DNA from: Pontiellaceae bacterium
Lineage (GTDB): Bacteria > Verrucomicrobiota > Kiritimatiellia > Kiritimatiellales > Pontiellaceae
Reading direction: 5' to 3'
DNA: 24,217 nucleotides
Assembly (NCBI GenBank): GCA_016937035.1
Contig: JAFGWS010000173.1
Location: 1-24,217 of the forward strand
Below are positions 1,984 to 22,357 of this stretch, piece after piece. The notes beneath the pieces are model-generated. The model was not told the origin of the DNA, ran no database searches, and saw nothing but the letters and a program-made list of their open reading frames with translations. Every line of letters begins with the position of its first letter. The first letter of the stretch is position 1. A program made the position numbers and the translations under genes.

Positions 1984-4065
1984 TTGAAAATCATAGAAAT
2001 CCTGCAGAAATCAAACTACAAGCTGTCCCAGTTCAACGAGGAGGATATCCAGGATCTGGAAGATAGCATCTCCTCCAAAAAGACTGCAAAGGGCACATTC
2101 TACTATGTACCGTGCCGCATCCGGGGAAAACTGATCCGGCTTACCCCCGAGGAGGTTATCCGTCAACTCTACCTCCGCGTGCTGATGGATCGCTACCAAT
2201 ATCCTGCGGAGCGCATCCAGGTCGAGTATCCGGTTCATTTTGGACGGGAAGTCAAACGTGCCGACATCGTCGTGTTCGACAAGGACAAGGCGACTTCCAT
2301 CTTCATCGTCGTTGAAATCAAGTCCCCGAAATGGAACTCGGGCAAGGAACAGCTCAAATCCTACTGCCATGCGACAGGAGCGCCCATTGCGGTCTGGACG
2401 AACGGAGAAAGCATCTCCTATTGGAACCGCCGCGACCCAAACCACTTCTTCGACATTACCCACATCCCCATGGAGAGCGAAACACTGGAGGAGGTCCTTA
2501 ACGAACGCTTCACGATCGCCGATCTGATCGAAAAGGATAAACTGATCAATGAAAGAAAATCCCTCAAGGATCTGATTCAGGACATGGAAGACGAGGTCCT
2601 CGCCCATGCCGGGGTGGATGTTTTCGAGGAAGTCTTCAAGCTCATTTTTACCAAGCTCTACGACGAATCGCTATCGGGGCGCGATCGGAGCCGCTTCCTT
2701 GAATTCCGCAACACCGGTCAAACGGAGACGGCGCTGAACAAGAAAATCCAAACCCTTTTCTCCAGTGCCAAGGAAAAATGGCAGGGTGTTTTTGAGGAGT
2801 CTTCCCGCATCCAGCTCAGCCCCTCCAATCTGGGCATCTGCGTTTCTTCTTTGCAGGACGTGAAGCTGTTCAATTCCAACCTTGAAGTGGTTGACGAAGC
2901 GTTCGAATACCTCATGAGCAAAAGCAGCAAGGGCGAAAAGGGGCAGTATTTCACCCCTCGCTACGTTATCGACATGTGCGTAAAAATGCTCAATCCACAG
3001 GCGCATGAAACCCTGATCGATACCGCCGCAGGCTCGTCGGGCTTCACCGTGCACGGCATCTTCCATGTCTGGAAAGGCATCCTGGAAGAGAAAAACATGC
3101 ATGCCAGCCACCTGTTCACCATCGAGCAGAAGCCGATCGAGTGCGAAAAATATGTGCAGGAAAAGGTTTTTGCCATCGACTTCGACGAAAAGGCCGTTCG
3201 AGTGGCCCGCACCCTCAACCTGATTGCCGGTGACGGCCAGACCAATGTCCTGCACCTCAACACGCTGGACTACACCCGCTGGGACGAAACCACCAAACAG
3301 GAAGAATGGCTCGATACCTTTAATGAAGGGTTCAAACGCCTCAAGAAGCAGCGTCGCAAATCCGACAGCAACAAGGAATACAACTTTGATCTGCTCATGG
3401 CCAACCCGCCCTTTGCAGGCGACATCAAGGACGGCCAGATCATCACCCGCTACGAGCTGGGCAAAAACACCAACGGCAAATGGCGCCCCAAGGTCGGGCG
3501 CGACATTCTCTTCATCGAGCGCAATCTCGACTTTCTGCGTCCCGGAGGCCGGATGGCGATTGTTCTTCCGCAGGGCCGCTTCAACAACGCCAGCGACAAG
3601 ATCATCCGCGACTTCATCACCGAGCGTTGCCGCATCCTCGCCGTTGTCGGCCTGCATCAGAACACCTTCAAGCCGCACACCGGAACCAAAACCTCCGTCC
3701 TCTTCGTGCAGAAATGGAACGACGATCCCAACGCCGGGCCGCTCTGCCCGAAGGTGGACGACTACAACATTTTCTTCGCCACCATGCAGAAGCCCGGCAA
3801 GGACAACTCCGGCGAAAAAATCTATGTCCGCAAGCGCAACCCCGAGTTCCAACCCGTGGAAACCAAAACCGGCAAGATTTCGACCGTGGATGAAACCCCG
3901 AACAAATACAACGCTGTGCCCGAGTTTCTGGACGAATACGAACTCGACTCCCATGGGCACCTGTTCGTCGACCACGACCTCTTCAACCACGATGGACTGA
4001 CCAGCGACGGCATCGCCGAGGCCTTCATCGAATTCGCCAAAAAGGAACACCTCTCTTTTTTCTGA
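1984..4065 (+). CDS. Restriction nuclease-N6-adenine methyltransferase fusion (BcgI-like RM subunit)
   Basis: A 693-aa protein likely to cut and methylate DNA when partnered with the following specificity subunit. The N-terminal part is an HSDR_N-type PD-(D/E)xK nuclease: RADIVVF (Asp94), VVEIKSP (Glu111, Lys113) and QLKSYCHATG (from Gln123). A helical linker follows. The C-terminal HsdM/N6_Mtase core has GQYFTPRYV (about 320-328), the AdoMet motif DTAAGSSGF (346-354), the catalytic NPPF (474-477) and RPGGRMAIVLPQGRF downstream. The start chosen is TTG 1984 because GGGGGTG lies 6 nt upstream; ATG 1960 in the same frame is the alternative. No DEAD-box translocase is present here or nearby, so it resembles BcgI subunit A more than classical HsdM plus HsdR. 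It overlaps the next gene at CTGA. Confidence 0.9.
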   Translation: MKIIEILQKSNYKLSQFNEEDIQDLEDSISSKKTAKGTFYYVPCRIRGKLIRLTPEEVIRQLYLRVLMDRYQYPAERIQVEYPVHFGREVKRADIVVFDKDKATSIFIVVEIKSPKWNSGKEQLKSYCHATGAPIAVWTNGESISYWNRRDPNHFFDITHIPMESETLEEVLNERFTIADLIEKDKLINERKSLKDLIQDMEDEVLAHAGVDVFEEVFKLIFTKLYDESLSGRDRSRFLEFRNTGQTETALNKKIQTLFSSAKEKWQGVFEESSRIQLSPSNLGICVSSLQDVKLFNSNLEVVDEAFEYLMSKSSKGEKGQYFTPRYVIDMCVKMLNPQAHETLIDTAAGSSGFTVHGIFHVWKGILEEKNMHASHLFTIEQKPIECEKYVQEKVFAIDFDEKAVRVARTLNLIAGDGQTNVLHLNTLDYTRWDETTKQEEWLDTFNEGFKRLKKQRRKSDSNKEYNFDLLMANPPFAGDIKDGQIITRYELGKNTNGKWRPKVGRDILFIERNLDFLRPGGRMAIVLPQGRFNNASDKIIRDFITERCRILAVVGLHQNTFKPHTGTKTSVLFVQKWNDDPNAGPLCPKVDDYNIFFATMQKPGKDNSGEKIYVRKRNPEFQPVETKTGKISTVDETPNKYNAVPEFLDEYELDSHGHLFVDHDLFNHDGLTSDGIAEAFIEFAKKEHLSFF

Positions 4066-6188
4066 CCCGCCCGTTCGATGAAGCGAAATACAACGCTTTG
4101 TTGAACGGGCTGGAGATCAGTGAAGTTAGATTCTCCAAGCTGATAAGTGGAAATCGGCTGGATGCAGAGGTCTATGAACGGCAGTACATTTTTATTGAAG
4201 GGCGACTGGCACAACACCCTACCGTTTTGCTTGGTGATATTGCCCAGACACTTCGAAAAGGGATCTTCGATGTAAATGCCGCAGTTTATTCTGATTTCGG
4301 AATTCCTTTTGTGAGAATTTCCAATCTTCGGAACATGCAGATCCAAGGAGACTTTGTCTGCATCCCGGAGAAAGTTGATCGGGAAAACCACAAAACACAT
4401 CTGAGAAAAGGCGATATTGTTCTCTCTAAGACCGCCTGCGCAGCCGCATCCCTTGTAACGGTTGACGAATGCAATGTTTCGCAGGATACCGTCGCATTGA
4501 AGCTGAAGCCGAAGTGTGGAATACGCTCCGATTTTCTTGTGACTTATTTCAACACTCGCGAGGGGCTGCTGTTGTTGCGCAGATGGTTTACCGGCAACAT
4601 TCAAATGCACCTAAACCTCGAGGACTGTGGAAATATCGCCGTTCCCGCCTTTTCAAACGATCTTCAAACCAAAATCGGAAAACTGCTCTTGGACGGTATT
4701 GCGAAGCGTGAAATCAGCGAATCAGAATTCAAAGCGGCGCAGCAGGTTTTGCTGGAGGCGCTTAATTATTCCGAATCCGTTCATGAACAAAGCGCATCCG
4801 TTAAATCCTTCACCGAATCCTTTTCCGTCAGCGGGCGGCTGGATGCCGAGTTTTACCAGCCCAAGTTTGACGAGCTGTTTAAGCGCATTCACCAGAACGC
4901 TGAATACGTGAAGACGGTTTCCGAGATAGCTGGATACATTGAGCGAGGATGCGTTGCGCAGTATGACGAGAGCGGCTCTTGCAAAATGATCACCCAGAAG
5001 CATCTGACAGAAACAGAAATTGATTACGAGAATTTAGATAAGACGACGCTGCAATGCTGGGAAGCAAACGAATCCGCTCAGGTTCGGCAGAACGATATCC
5101 TTGTCTATTCGACGGGTGCCAATGTAGGGCGCACGCAAGCCTATCTTTCCAATGAACGAGCATTGGCTTGCCAGGATATAGTGACGATCCGCCAGGGAAA
5201 TGAGGATCCAATCTATGTTGCCTGCGTAATGAATTCATTGATCGGCAGGTTGCAGACAGAAAAATTCAAGAGCGGTTGCGCCCAGCCACATCTTTACCCC
5301 AAAGACATTTCTCAATTTGTGATCCCGTTTGTTTCCAAGGAAAAGCAACAGGAGATTGTAGACCGGCTCTTGGAAGCACGTGAAAAGAAGGCGGAATCGT
5401 ATCACTTGCTGGAAAAAGCGAAGCGGGCGGTGGAGATCGCGATTGAGAAGGGGGAAGAAGCGGCGATGGCCTATTTGGATGGCAAGAGTTATGTCGCGCA
5501 GACGATCACGCAGGATCTGGCGCAGAAGGCCCCGTACTTTTCCATCGATGCCGTCCGCGATTGGCTGGCGGAACAAAAGATGAGCTACAAGCCGGATACG
5601 GTGAAGAGCTACCTCAGCCGCCAGCAGAAGGAGGGGAAAATCTTCGATGCCGGGCGCGGATGGTATTCCTCCATCGCGGAGCCGTACCGGCTCGATACGG
5701 CACCGGTAGAAAAACTAGTTGGCGAACTTAAAACCGCATTCCCTCTGTTGGAGTTTGCCTGCTGGTCGACGGCCCAGCTGAACGAGATGCTGCGGCACCA
5801 GCTGGCCAAGCATGTCCAGTTAGCCTATGTCGAACGCGACGCCATCGGCAGCGTCGCCGACTGGCTCCGCAGCCACGGCTACCGCGCCTACGCCAATCCC
5901 GGAAAAGCGGAAATCCGGAAAACCTTCTCCATCGAGGGAAACACGGTGGTGGTTCTGCCGCTCACCACCAAGAGTCCGCAACAGAACGGGTATGCCATGT
6001 TCGAGAAGATCATGGTGGACGTATTGGCTGATATAGAAATTTTTTCCATCATGAACATCCCCGAATTCATAGATGGAGCATCAGGTGTAATTCAATCACA
6101 ACGCATTGATATGGCTGAATTAATAAAATACTCAACCCGCCGGAATATCGATATTTCGAGATTGGAAGATGGCTTTGTAATCCACTAG
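4062..6188 (+). CDS. HsdS specificity subunit fused to an AbiEi-like (DUF6577-type) antitoxin
   Basis: Numbering here is from TTG 4098. Residues 1-462 form a two-TRD HsdS: TRD1 (about 40-190), a helical spacer (195-225), the repeat-like SGRLDAEFYQPKFDE (245-259) mirroring SGNRLDAEVYERQY (17-30), TRD2 (about 270-415), and a closing helix ending AIEKGEEAAMAYLDG, where HsdS proteins normally stop. Without a stop the chain continues into a winged helix (about 468-526: FSIDAVRDWLAEQKMSYKPD, then GRGWYSS). A domain with FACWSTAQLNEMLRHQL, EKIMVDVLADIEIF and a basic IKYSTRRN tail follows. This matches what I know of AbiEi-type antitoxins next to AbiEii toxins. The family-like opening FDEAKYNALLNGLE lies in frame upstream of TTG 4098, so translation probably starts at CTG 4062, overlapping the methylase stop as CTGA. 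Confidence 0.85.
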   Translation: MTRPFDEAKYNALLNGLEISEVRFSKLISGNRLDAEVYERQYIFIEGRLAQHPTVLLGDIAQTLRKGIFDVNAAVYSDFGIPFVRISNLRNMQIQGDFVCIPEKVDRENHKTHLRKGDIVLSKTACAAASLVTVDECNVSQDTVALKLKPKCGIRSDFLVTYFNTREGLLLLRRWFTGNIQMHLNLEDCGNIAVPAFSNDLQTKIGKLLLDGIAKREISESEFKAAQQVLLEALNYSESVHEQSASVKSFTESFSVSGRLDAEFYQPKFDELFKRIHQNAEYVKTVSEIAGYIERGCVAQYDESGSCKMITQKHLTETEIDYENLDKTTLQCWEANESAQVRQNDILVYSTGANVGRTQAYLSNERALACQDIVTIRQGNEDPIYVACVMNSLIGRLQTEKFKSGCAQPHLYPKDISQFVIPFVSKEKQQEIVDRLLEAREKKAESYHLLEKAKRAVEIAIEKGEEAAMAYLDGKSYVAQTITQDLAQKAPYFSIDAVRDWLAEQKMSYKPDTVKSYLSRQQKEGKIFDAGRGWYSSIAEPYRLDTAPVEKLVGELKTAFPLLEFACWSTAQLNEMLRHQLAKHVQLAYVERDAIGSVADWLRSHGYRAYANPGKAEIRKTFSIEGNTVVVLPLTTKSPQQNGYAMFEKIMVDVLADIEIFSIMNIPEFIDGASGVIQSQRIDMAELIKYSTRRNIDISRLEDGFVIH

Positions 6189-6223
6189 CGGCGTTTTTTG
6201 TCGAAAATCGCCGCTAGTGGATT
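6179..6223. promoter_or_regulatory. 15-bp perfect inverted repeat between antitoxin and toxin
   Basis: AATCCACTAGCGGCG (6179-6193) and CGCCGCTAGTGGATT (6209-6223) are perfect inverted copies around a 15-nt spacer. After a T-T mismatch the spacer pairs further (TTTT with AAAA). The left arm contains the last codons and the TAG stop of the antitoxin; the right arm ends 15 nt before the toxin ATG. No U-tract follows on either strand, so it is not a standard intrinsic terminator. An operator for the winged-helix antitoxin, an RNA processing hairpin or a partial terminator limiting toxin transcription are all possible. Confidence 0.75.
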
Positions 6224-6238
6224 CGTACGGATAAACCG

Positions 6239-7306
6239 ATGAACATATTGCAGGAAAAGTGCTTCACAAAGGAGTGGCTGGCCGAACAAAAGGCGATGAT
6301 GCAGCGGGTCGATCCCGGCCTGCTGGAAAAGAGCATCCATGCCTTGGAACTCGTCGGATTGCTTGCCCATCGGCAGATTCCTTTTTCCTTCAAGGGCGGT
6401 ACCTGCATGCTGTTGTTGCTGGAAAACATCCGCAGGCTATCCATCGATGTGGATATTGCCTGTACCGTATCCGGTGCGGAACTCGAATCCATTCTGCGCG
6501 AGATCGGAAAAGAGAGTCGCTTCGAAACCTTTGAGCCCGACCACCGTGATCCGAATCGCCTGCCCAAACGCTCCCACTATAAATTCACCTACACATCAGC
6601 CATCAACGGAAAAGCCAACGACATCCTGCTGGATGTGATGGAAGAGGATTGTCTCTATCCGGAAACCATCTCAAAGCAGGTGGCCACTCCGTTTGCCATC
6701 CCCGAAAATCACCACGAAGTAGAGATTCCAACCATTGAGTGTCTGGCTGCGGACAAGCTGACCGCGTTCGCCCCCTCGACCATCGGTGTGAAATATTCCT
6801 CGTACGGCTCTTCGATGAAGATCCTCAAACACTGCGCCGACATCGGTGCACTGTTCGATCATTGCGAAAACATGGAGAAACTGCATGCGGCCTACGAAGC
6901 CATCTGGCCGGTGGAAAATTCCTACAGGAACAATGCATTCAGTCGGGAGCGGATTCTCGACGACACCATTGACGCTGCCCGACTCATCGGCATGCTTGAT
7001 CTGCGGGGCTGTCCATCTTCTGATAAAACTGAAACCTTGCGAACTGGCATCAAGCAACTCGACAGCCACATCATCGGCACACACTTTTCATTGAGCGAAG
7101 CCAAGGTATGCGCGGCAAAGGCGGCCTGGTTCGCAACGTGTCTAAAACAAGGGACTTCCTCCGTCGCCCTGCCGCGCTACAATATGGAAGAACTTCAGGA
7201 ACTCGCAAATAAGCCTCTGCAAGGTGACCTCGTTCCGCTCAACCGGCTGCGAAGCGGAGCGCCCGAAGCCTATTACTACTGGCTCAGAACCGCATCCATT
7301 CGTTAA
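6239..7306 (+). CDS. AbiEii/AbiGii-family nucleotidyltransferase toxin
   Basis: A 355-aa member of the AbiEii toxin family (MNT-fold nucleotidyltransferase), the toxic partner in type IV toxin-antitoxin/abortive infection pairs. Some relatives add nucleotides to tRNA acceptor ends. Visible family motifs: FKGGTCMLLLLENIRRLSID (51-70), holding the GG and Ser68/Asp70, with Asp72 next; the ILLDVM strand (129-134); IECLAADKLTAF (166-177); and ILKHCADIGALF (195-206), equivalent to the KxxD-type helix. Length fits the family. It lies 50 nt after the HsdS-antitoxin fusion, on the same strand. The ATG at 6239 lacks a good Shine-Dalgarno (only CGGA nearby), suggesting translation weaker than that of the antitoxin. 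All recognisable catalytic motifs are intact, so it should be active unless restrained. Confidence 0.9.
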   Translation: MNILQEKCFTKEWLAEQKAMMQRVDPGLLEKSIHALELVGLLAHRQIPFSFKGGTCMLLLLENIRRLSIDVDIACTVSGAELESILREIGKESRFETFEPDHRDPNRLPKRSHYKFTYTSAINGKANDILLDVMEEDCLYPETISKQVATPFAIPENHHEVEIPTIECLAADKLTAFAPSTIGVKYSSYGSSMKILKHCADIGALFDHCENMEKLHAAYEAIWPVENSYRNNAFSRERILDDTIDAARLIGMLDLRGCPSSDKTETLRTGIKQLDSHIIGTHFSLSEAKVCAAKAAWFATCLKQGTSSVALPRYNMEELQELANKPLQGDLVPLNRLRSGAPEAYYYWLRTASIR

Positions 7307-7314
7307 ACGGGAAA

Positions 7315-7430
7315 TGAAAACCATGCCGAATCTTGTGGAAATAAATAATCAGCGCTTCCTCACCAAATCCCGCTTCAAGCCGGTGGTGGAGGGCTCGACG
7401 AAGCTGTTTTATGCGGGCAAGGACGAGTAG
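7315..7430 (+). pseudogene. N-terminal stump of a DUF2779/Cas4-like nuclease gene
   Basis: Starting 8 nt after the toxin stop, ATG 7315 opens a 38-codon frame. Its segment NNQRFLTKSRFKPVVEG is followed by STKLFYAGKDE and a TAG. The pattern LTKSRFK...C-P-T-K-L-F-Y-x-G-K is what I know from the start of DUF2779 proteins (PD-(D/E)xK nucleases related to Cas4). Here the usual Cys-Pro is Gly-Ser. After the TAG the frame continues only briefly (YPE) before the convergent exonuclease gene. It was probably the fourth gene of the defence operon, lost by deletion. A genuine 38-aa peptide is possible but less likely. Confidence 0.5.
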
Positions 7431-21172: not shown

Positions 21173-22357
21173 ATGTGGATTAATAGAAATTTGGGAGAAA
21201 AGCTGAGTAATGCCTGTGGTGTTCGACCCGCCGTGCTTGTTACGGGGGCGCGGCAGACAGGAAAAAGTTCTCTGTTGCGTCGTCAGTTTCCAGAAGCGGA
21301 TTATGTCACGCTGGATCGAATTGCGATGGCGGAGGAAGCTGAGGAGAATCCCGAATCTTTTTTGAGCAGATTTCCCGGACCAGTAATTATTGACGAAATT
21401 CAATACGCACCGTCCCTGTTCCGGGAGCTGAAAATTCGAATTGATGACAACCGAGAGGAGTTTGGTCAATGGATTTTGACGGGCAGTCAGCGGTTTGAGT
21501 TGATGAAAGGTGTGGGAGAGAGTCTTGTCGGGCGATTGAGTATTTTACAGCTCGAAACTTTAAGCGCAGAGGAGCTCCGAGGCACAGGCTGTTTTGATGC
21601 AGACGAGATTCATAGTGCGTTGTGGAAGGGCGGGTATCCTGAGTTGTGGGCTGTAGAGGGCTTGGAATCCCATGATTTTTTTTCGGACTATATACAGACC
21701 TATTTGGAACGTGATTTGAACGCGCTCATTCAGGTGGCCGATTTGCGGAGTTTTCGAAGGTTTATTCAGGCCTGTGCTGTAAGGGCGGGACAACTGCTCA
21801 ATTATACCGATATGGCAAAGCATGTCGGAGTTTCTTCGGTTACCATTAAGAAGTGGGTGAGCATACTGGAGGCCAGCGGCATTATCTATTTGCTTCCACC
21901 TTTTTTTGCCAACATCGGCAAGCGGCTGGTAAAGGCTCCAAAACTTTATTTTGCGGATAACGGACTATTGTGTCACATGCTCAATGTGTCGAATCGTTCC
22001 GCCTATGAAGCAACGCCCATGGGCGGGCAAATCTGGGAAAATTTTGTGTTTACAGAGATCGTGAAAACGCTGTCACTGAAACCTGGGCGAAACCTGTTTT
22101 TTTATCGCGATCAAAACGGGGTTGAAATGGATTTTGTGATGGAGATGGACCGTCGTCTTGTTTTGGTTGAGGCCAAAGCCGCCGAGCGGGTGGATCGGAG
22201 GAAACTCAATTTTTCGAAGATTGCTCCTCTATTTTTGTCAGGCGAGGTTCAATGTGTTCTGATGAACGCGAGTGCCGAAAGTTCAGCTGTTCAGTTCAGA
22301 GAGTATTCCATGCTGAATCCGCTGAAGCATAATCCGGCTGAGTTCTTCTGGAGTTGA
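21173..22357 (+). CDS. AAA_14/DUF4143-family ATPase
   Basis: A 394-aa protein of the common ATP-binding AAA_14 plus DUF4143 family. Walker A is GARQTGKSS (residues 25-33), Walker B VIIDEIQ (71-77), the sensor LTGSQ (102-106), and an arginine in GRLS (about 120). The C-terminal DUF4143 part has the winged-helix-like segment YTDMAKHVGVSSVTIKKWVS and then LLPPFFANIGKRLVKAPKLY. After that comes a nuclease-like GVEMDFVMEMD...LVLVEAK stretch, which resembles a PD-(D/E)xK core (D, then E-x-K). The family is widespread and its role is unsettled. The ribosome binding site is poor (GATGGG close to the ATG). It is a single gene followed by an unrelated cluster. Confidence 0.88.
   Translation: MWINRNLGEKLSNACGVRPAVLVTGARQTGKSSLLRRQFPEADYVTLDRIAMAEEAEENPESFLSRFPGPVIIDEIQYAPSLFRELKIRIDDNREEFGQWILTGSQRFELMKGVGESLVGRLSILQLETLSAEELRGTGCFDADEIHSALWKGGYPELWAVEGLESHDFFSDYIQTYLERDLNALIQVADLRSFRRFIQACAVRAGQLLNYTDMAKHVGVSSVTIKKWVSILEASGIIYLLPPFFANIGKRLVKAPKLYFADNGLLCHMLNVSNRSAYEATPMGGQIWENFVFTEIVKTLSLKPGRNLFFYRDQNGVEMDFVMEMDRRLVLVEAKAAERVDRRKLNFSKIAPLFLSGEVQCVLMNASAESSAVQFREYSMLNPLKHNPAEFFWS

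Follow-up and report, generated by a model that had tools for sequence, protein, structure and literature searches.

Why would the specificity subunit of a restriction-modification (R-M) enzyme end in an antitoxin, with a toxin gene directly behind it? The question is raised by a cluster on the plus strand of a 24,217-nucleotide (nt) stretch of DNA from a Pontiellaceae bacterium (contig JAFGWS010000173.1), the whole of which is referred to here as the window. Three genes compose the cluster: a methylase (1984..4065), a fusion of HsdS and AbiEi (4098-6188, with a TTG start at 4098 and 696 amino acids, aa) and a predicted AbiEii nucleotidyltransferase toxin (6239..7306). This arrangement is best read as one case of AbiE being added repeatedly to methylation-based defence, with the wiring here made through the specificity subunit.

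The frame of the fusion is open from 4062 to 6188, and its residues are numbered in this frame unless stated otherwise. The HsdS part (4098..5483) contains two target-recognition domains (TRDs) and closing helices, and the AbiEi part (5484..6188) a winged helix followed by an antitoxin-type DUF6577 domain. Specificity_I of PADLOC covers residues 30-474 (9.3e-41), the better of two stretches matching Methylase_S (Pfam PF01420) lies at residues 303-436 (1.3e-10), and the fold of this part matches HsdS proteins. For the AbiEi part, the respective matches are PADLOC AbiEi at residues 484-696 (1.2e-30) and DUF6577 (Pfam PF20217) at residues 513-696 (1.3e-32). The initial annotation, made from the sequence of this locus, had described a single uninterrupted HsdS-AbiEi frame with an AbiEi-like C-terminal part, and both points are confirmed. 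It had also placed the end of the HsdS closing helix near residue 462, counted from 4098, which corresponds to residue 474 in the numbering used here; in the predicted structure the closing helices end at residues 463 and 473. Three AbiEi-less relatives (L001-L003) align to the fusion only as far as residue 472-476.

The AbiEi part was modelled with a predicted local distance difference test score of 93.4. Its three top Foldseek matches are 6y8q_A (1.3e-5), 6y8q_D (8.1e-4) and 1zel_A (2.4e-3), with low template-modelling scores (0.30-0.37), and no PDB sequence matches it. Pfam assigns DUF6577, a family of unknown function, in 42/42 members and no AbiEi family, while PADLOC names the domain AbiEi. 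The winged helix and C-terminal antitoxin domain that define AbiE antitoxins are both present, and the antitoxin ancestry of this part of the fusion is well supported.

The toxin gene begins 50 nt after the fused gene and matches PF08843 (1.2e-16) and PADLOC AbiEii (2.4e-94). In the literature on AbiE, the consensus of motifs I-II is hG[G/S]x15DhD with an Arg, that of motif III KLxAa and that of motif IV +DxxD (PMC3985639). Motifs I-II are intact, with G53-G54, 15 residues and D70-V-D72, plus R65-R66; G53, G54, D70 and D72 are invariant in 29/29 aligned proteins, that of the window included. The claim of an adjacent AbiEii with an undamaged GG...SIDVD motif thus holds. Motif III is present as KLTAF, and motif IV reads K-x-x-x-D, where the first Asp is absent. 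A search of the AbiEii profile against the PDB gave no significant relative.

The methylase, whose probable TTG start at 1984 was set from an alignment with six relatives, is type I/IIB-like. Its N-terminus matches HSDR_N_2 of the PD-(D/E)XK type (PF13588, 3.6e-27) and is followed by N6_Mtase (PF02384, 1.3e-29), both in Pfam. The ADI...ExK signature is kept in 7/7 methylases compared, including that of the window. RM.BsaXI is the nearest solved sequence (2.9e-20), with the match confined to the methylase part, and a nuclease role of this chain is predicted from its domain only. Both HsdM and HsdS of type I R-M are recognised at the locus by PADLOC, Pfam and fold matches; the location of HSDR_N_2 and N6_Mtase in a single chain with a separate S subunit may follow the type IIB layout (Pfam). 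Among the closed open reading frames (ORFs) of the window, which were partly profiled and exclude frames cut by its edges, none is of HsdR size (the longest has 776 aa), and such a gene could sit elsewhere in the genome. In the case of the "nuclease-methylase" of the initial annotation, the predicted nuclease domain was recovered and a separate HsdR was not seen in the window.

The fusion recurs in other assemblies. A first, length-filtered search gave 62 proteins including that of the window, of which 57 match both HsdS and AbiEi profiles (built mostly from those same proteins) and four are Eco57I-type IIG fusions. The remaining one, P0062, matches HsdS only and is frameshifted at the HsdS/AbiEi junction. 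Beyond the window there are consequently 56 HsdS-fused and four IIG-fused proteins, and 44/57 HsdS-fused proteins have at least 670 aa. With 60 other fused proteins an assembly artefact is ruled out, and the 57 proteins matching both profiles exclude a sequencing slip at the junction. Near relatives carry the names Kiritimatiellia, Pontiellaceae and Verrucomicrobiota, and some are called "DUF6577 family protein" in their sources.

A second search gave 73 proteins, one of them a partial HsdS fusion (P0183), and included separate AbiEi proteins of the same clade, so that the notion of every relative being fused is rejected; the all-fused appearance of the first search arose because its length filter hid stand-alone AbiEi. 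The possibility that these are two separate genes, joined in this assembly alone, is therefore half right: many close homologues are indeed separate, and 60 others are fused. A simple sequence pattern of the C-terminal domain recovered only 50/61 fused and 47/73 second-search proteins and was too crude to use.

In a tree of 113 rows from 134 proteins (three proteins with short domains and 18 near-copies from the distant clade were dropped), built by a quick method supported only by the Shimodaira-Hasegawa-like approximate likelihood ratio test, fused and separate forms are interleaved. HsdS fusion changes state 12 times on this tree, with no fewer than four changes forced by supported branches, and IIG fusion four times, all forced; gains and losses count alike as changes.

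The presence of AbiEii beside the fusion in relatives was judged indirectly, from a fused protein and an AbiEii being listed with an identical longest-contig size. By this measure 12/26 fused proteins of the near clade besides the window's pair with AbiEii (13/27 with the window), and 14/62 proteins do so when P0062 is added; in a control with 600 size shifts over all 62 proteins the mean was 0.34 matches and the maximum four. For the 13 pairs, that of the window among them, AbiEi and AbiEii distances are correlated (r 0.96; 0/5000 permutations as high). Among second-search proteins, 12/73 pair with a listed AbiEii (control mean 0.96, maximum six).

Unfused AbiE was examined in a survey of 1,084 genomes from four phyla (Acidobacteriota, Bacteroidota, the phylum of Desulfobacteraceae and one further), a sample that lies outside the window's own phylum. 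DUF6577 was matched in 4/247, 36/345, 6/345 and 6/147 genomes of these phyla, i.e., in 52/1,084 with 54 matches, and 50 genomes were over the cut-off. None of the 54 matches stands in an open frame longer than 331 aa (that of G910 is cut by the contig end), and the suggestion that the fusion is common across bacteria finds no support in the four phyla. In agreement with the expectation that AbiEi genes are elsewhere separate and often beside AbiEii, the latter adjoins AbiEi in 19/30 Bacteroidota loci and in 5/10 loci of the two phyla surveyed first. AbiEii was not found by profile within the examined stretch of L026, L027, L029, L085, L086, L109-L114, L116, L119 and L126.

The neighbourhoods of 48/54 matches were read, and in 11/48 AbiEi has a type I, IIG or BREX (PglX) gene on its own strand no more than 2.5 kb away, a limit chosen after the loci had been inspected and with several queries taken from positive loci. 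The control, made of 17-kb windows from five chromosomes of Bacteroidota, gave 0/20 (Fisher one-sided p 0.015); it is small and from one phylum, and some contigs are short. Two loci show the AbiE pair inside another operon. In L122 (3060-11448, minus strand) the order is HsdM-AbiEi-AbiEii-HsdS-HsdR, within a type I operon, and in L076 (4363-17000) it is BrxC-AbiEi-AbiEii-PglX-...-PglZ, within a BREX operon and with spacings of about 30 and 4 nt. AbiEi-AbiEii-PglX is found in L080 and L043, AbiEi-AbiEii-HsdR-HsdS-HsdM in L021/L068 and AbiEi-AbiEii-HsdR-HsdS-...-HsdM in L078 and L083. AbiEi stands directly before HsdR in L113 and L114, and in L125 HsdR is upstream of AbiEi. L124, where AbiEi-AbiEii follows a type IIG-like gene after about 50 nt, looks like the unfused counterpart of the IIG fusions. 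Two further loci fall outside the count: L119, with HsdR 92 nt off on the other strand, and L084, with HsdM 3.4 kb off. As a separate observation, the type I operon adjoining AbiEi-AbiEii in L068 encodes an HsdS with a C-terminal GIY-YIG domain (L068:4291-6165).

What would such a fusion do? In one studied AbiE system the C-terminal domain of the antitoxin is enough for neutralising the toxin, whereas repression of transcription takes the full protein; AbiE is also able to stabilise plasmids (PMC3985639). At the present locus a whole antitoxin-type domain is fused onto the C-terminus of a two-TRD HsdS in an HSDR_N_2-N6_Mtase methylase module, and its AbiEi part would neutralise the neighbouring AbiEii nucleotidyltransferase. 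Since AbiEi is within the specificity protein, neutralisation would last only while that protein is made, and losing the defence enzyme may also cost the cell its antidote. If the module were lost or silenced, the cell would be exposed to AbiEii and retention would be enforced; AbiEii could possibly also act as a second line once the module is disabled. We lean slightly towards this reading, in which AbiE is wired into the R-M module through HsdS-AbiEi, the fused domain neutralises AbiEii and the toxin enforces retention of the module. The toxicity of AbiEii, its neutralisation by the fused form and retention as the selected effect are inferred. Over 32 aligned fused proteins, mean identity is 0.29 in the TRDs, 0.46 in AbiEi and 0.57 in the closing helices; diverging TRDs with a kept AbiEi are expected of one antitoxin carried on specificity subunits with different targets.

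Proteins in which the methylase N-terminus is joined in frame to AbiEi also bear on retention. Four are clear (P0189, P0186, P0185 and P0200, with 27-73 aa matched), their methylase matches being 73 aa at 78% and 2e-34 in P0189, 1.5e-18 in P0186, 7e-6 and 3e-4 in P0185 and 6e-5 in P0200; P0188 (E 0.006) and P0194 (0.011) are weaker candidates. The AbiEi match starts at residues 480-488 in all six, and P0189 and P0185 stand beside HsdS-fused rows in the tree. The simplest reading, from sequence comparison, is that methylase and HsdS were probably deleted with the frame of AbiEi left intact, an outcome to be expected if losing AbiEi is costly on account of AbiEii. These remnants fit the enforcement of retention, which the initial annotation had offered as its alternative. 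In P0184 a dihydropteroate synthase part precedes the same junction, possibly as an assembly chimera.

Several observations weigh against the retention reading, in addition to the indirect judgement of pairing and the late choice of the 2.5-kb limit. Fusion is not obligatory, as many AbiEi of its clade stand alone, and 37/48 unfused loci have no same-strand R-M or PglX gene by the distance used. In the distant clades, none of 34 fused proteins (30 with HsdS, four with IIG) pairs with an AbiEii among the best 120 of 902, nor does any of the four clear remnants, and only the weak P0188 does so; the contig of P0189, with 1,489 bases, has no room for both genes. The remnants are database protein predictions among which out-of-frame losses would escape detection, and they imply that loss of the module is tolerated provided that AbiEi stays. 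A pattern scan of species genomes that used the fused protein as query, and so reaches close relatives only, gave four loci, all HsdS without AbiEi, and viral contigs gave five, all HsdS only and without AbiEii. Respective searches found no AbiEi domain in phages and no DUF6577 match in four further genomes (three with pattern-scan HsdS loci and one other); plasmids have seven HsdS-only matches and one separate DUF6577 adjoining AbiEii.

Of the other explanations, guarding survives best, though we regard it as rather unlikely. The complex of methylase and HsdS-AbiEi would be a sensor, which phage anti-restriction proteins or engagement with foreign DNA would alter or destroy, so that AbiEi ceases to neutralise and AbiEii halts the cell. 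Guards of restriction are known, i.e., PrrC with EcoprrI and PARIS (PMC12707154), and the 11/48 loci in which AbiE neighbours type I, IIG or BREX genes are consistent with the idea, but nothing in the data ties the state of the complex to antitoxin activity and, judging from the HsdM-AbiEi remnants, AbiEi seems to be retained where HsdS is gone. A shade less credible is the full version, in which the assembled complex holds AbiEii in check, a phage that disables or titrates it sets the toxin free, and AbiE is a general guard, repeatedly recruited by type I, IIG, IIB-like and BREX systems.

Regulation is a more doubtful candidate. The winged helix would make the specificity protein an autorepressor of the operon or of the toxin gene, with an inverted repeat at 6179..6223 as the putative operator. 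This repeat, with 20-nt arms that are 95% complementary, covers the stop codon of the fused gene and ends 15 nt before the ATG of the toxin; the RNA of 6160-6260 folds at -35.8 kcal/mol (z -4.18), and 0/200 shuffles are equally stable. The wing pattern AG.GWY[SR] occurs in 59/61 fused proteins, and AbiEi autorepresses through inverted repeats (PMC3985639); on the contrary, an inverted repeat was not found before the methylase gene (1776-2000), and a regulatory role would leave the antitoxin role possible. As an intrinsic terminator the repeat was rejected, being absent from the list of the terminator scan. Neutral read-through, in which AbiE inserts by R-M genes and a stop codon is occasionally lost with no functional coupling, accords with unfused pairs directly adjoining R-M genes, as in L124, and with the interleaved tree, but it is the least probable, given the changes forced for both fusions and an AbiEi domain kept in the distant fused clade with diverse TRDs. 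Retention of the module driven by AbiEii is accordingly ranked most likely, above the bolder guarding, and autoregulation is compatible with both; the interpretation in the initial annotation is, as a whole, partly supported.

The cluster ends on the right with a stub of 39 codons (7314..7430, plus strand) that resembles the N-terminus of DUF2779. Both of its tblastn matches in plasmids are DUF2779 proteins, at weak values (E 0.07 and 0.5), and its frame 7311-7427 has no Pfam match; directly after AbiEii, it is possibly a remnant of a further cluster gene. The ORF at 1404-1775 upstream of the methylase, the only one profiled in the left flank, has no family match in PADLOC or Pfam. An RNase_T-family exonuclease and phosphoglucose isomerase (Pfam) lie on the minus strand of the right flank. 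An ATPase gene with AAA_14 and DUF4143 at 21173-22357 has no visible link to the cluster. As for the AbiEi-less relatives, the genes after the HsdS of L003 (L003:37-4687) encode an OLD-type ATPase and a UvrD helicase, a pair which we take to be Gabija-like, and the HsdS of L002 precedes HEPN_AbiU2. Effectors may thus be exchangeable beside the methylase/HsdS pair.

The fusion would tie the enzyme marking self and non-self DNA physically and directly to a toxin-antitoxin pair. It also suggests that R-M and BREX systems repeatedly have AbiE as a partner, and whether toxin-antitoxin pairs guard restriction systems could be tested with two or three genes. The main text of a 2026 BREX survey, in its excerpts, does not contain "AbiE" (PMC12839542), and no report of an HsdS-AbiEi fusion was found in literature outside subscription papers, preprints and supplements. 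A review in EcoSal names PrrC and PARIS as restriction guardians and considers accessory genes of R-M loci as thought to be toxins (PMC12707154).

Compared with known systems, the locus shares with the type IV AbiE system (PMC3985639) the winged helix with a C-terminal antitoxin-type domain, GG-x15-DhD in AbiEii and the adjacent genes; here, however, antitoxin and HsdS form one covalent chain, the AbiEi sequence belongs to the DUF6577 family and motif IV is without its first acidic residue. PrrC with EcoprrI (PMC12707154) similarly ties a growth-stopping effector to an R-M locus, but PrrC is an anticodon nuclease activated on inhibition of EcoprrI, whereas here it is the fusion of antitoxin and specificity subunit that makes the link. 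Type IIB BsaXI (8w0p) also has a nuclease-type domain and a methylase in one chain with a separate two-TRD S; in the present case an antitoxin is fused to S, a toxin gene is added and cleavage is only predicted. The methylase and S are related to MAD2 (1.4e-94) and MAD5 (6e-38) of the methylation-associated defence system (MADS), and membership is rejected because both scores fall far short of the curated thresholds (for MAD2 317.6 of 720 bits, for MAD5 130.8 of 400). CreTA, which guards CRISPR-Cas (PMC12737573), likewise makes the silencing of a toxin depend on the defence machinery, by an RNA-based, transcriptional route in contrast to the protein fusion of this locus. The parts are thus known, with DUF6577 already named and both halves scored by PADLOC, and their wiring is a variant.

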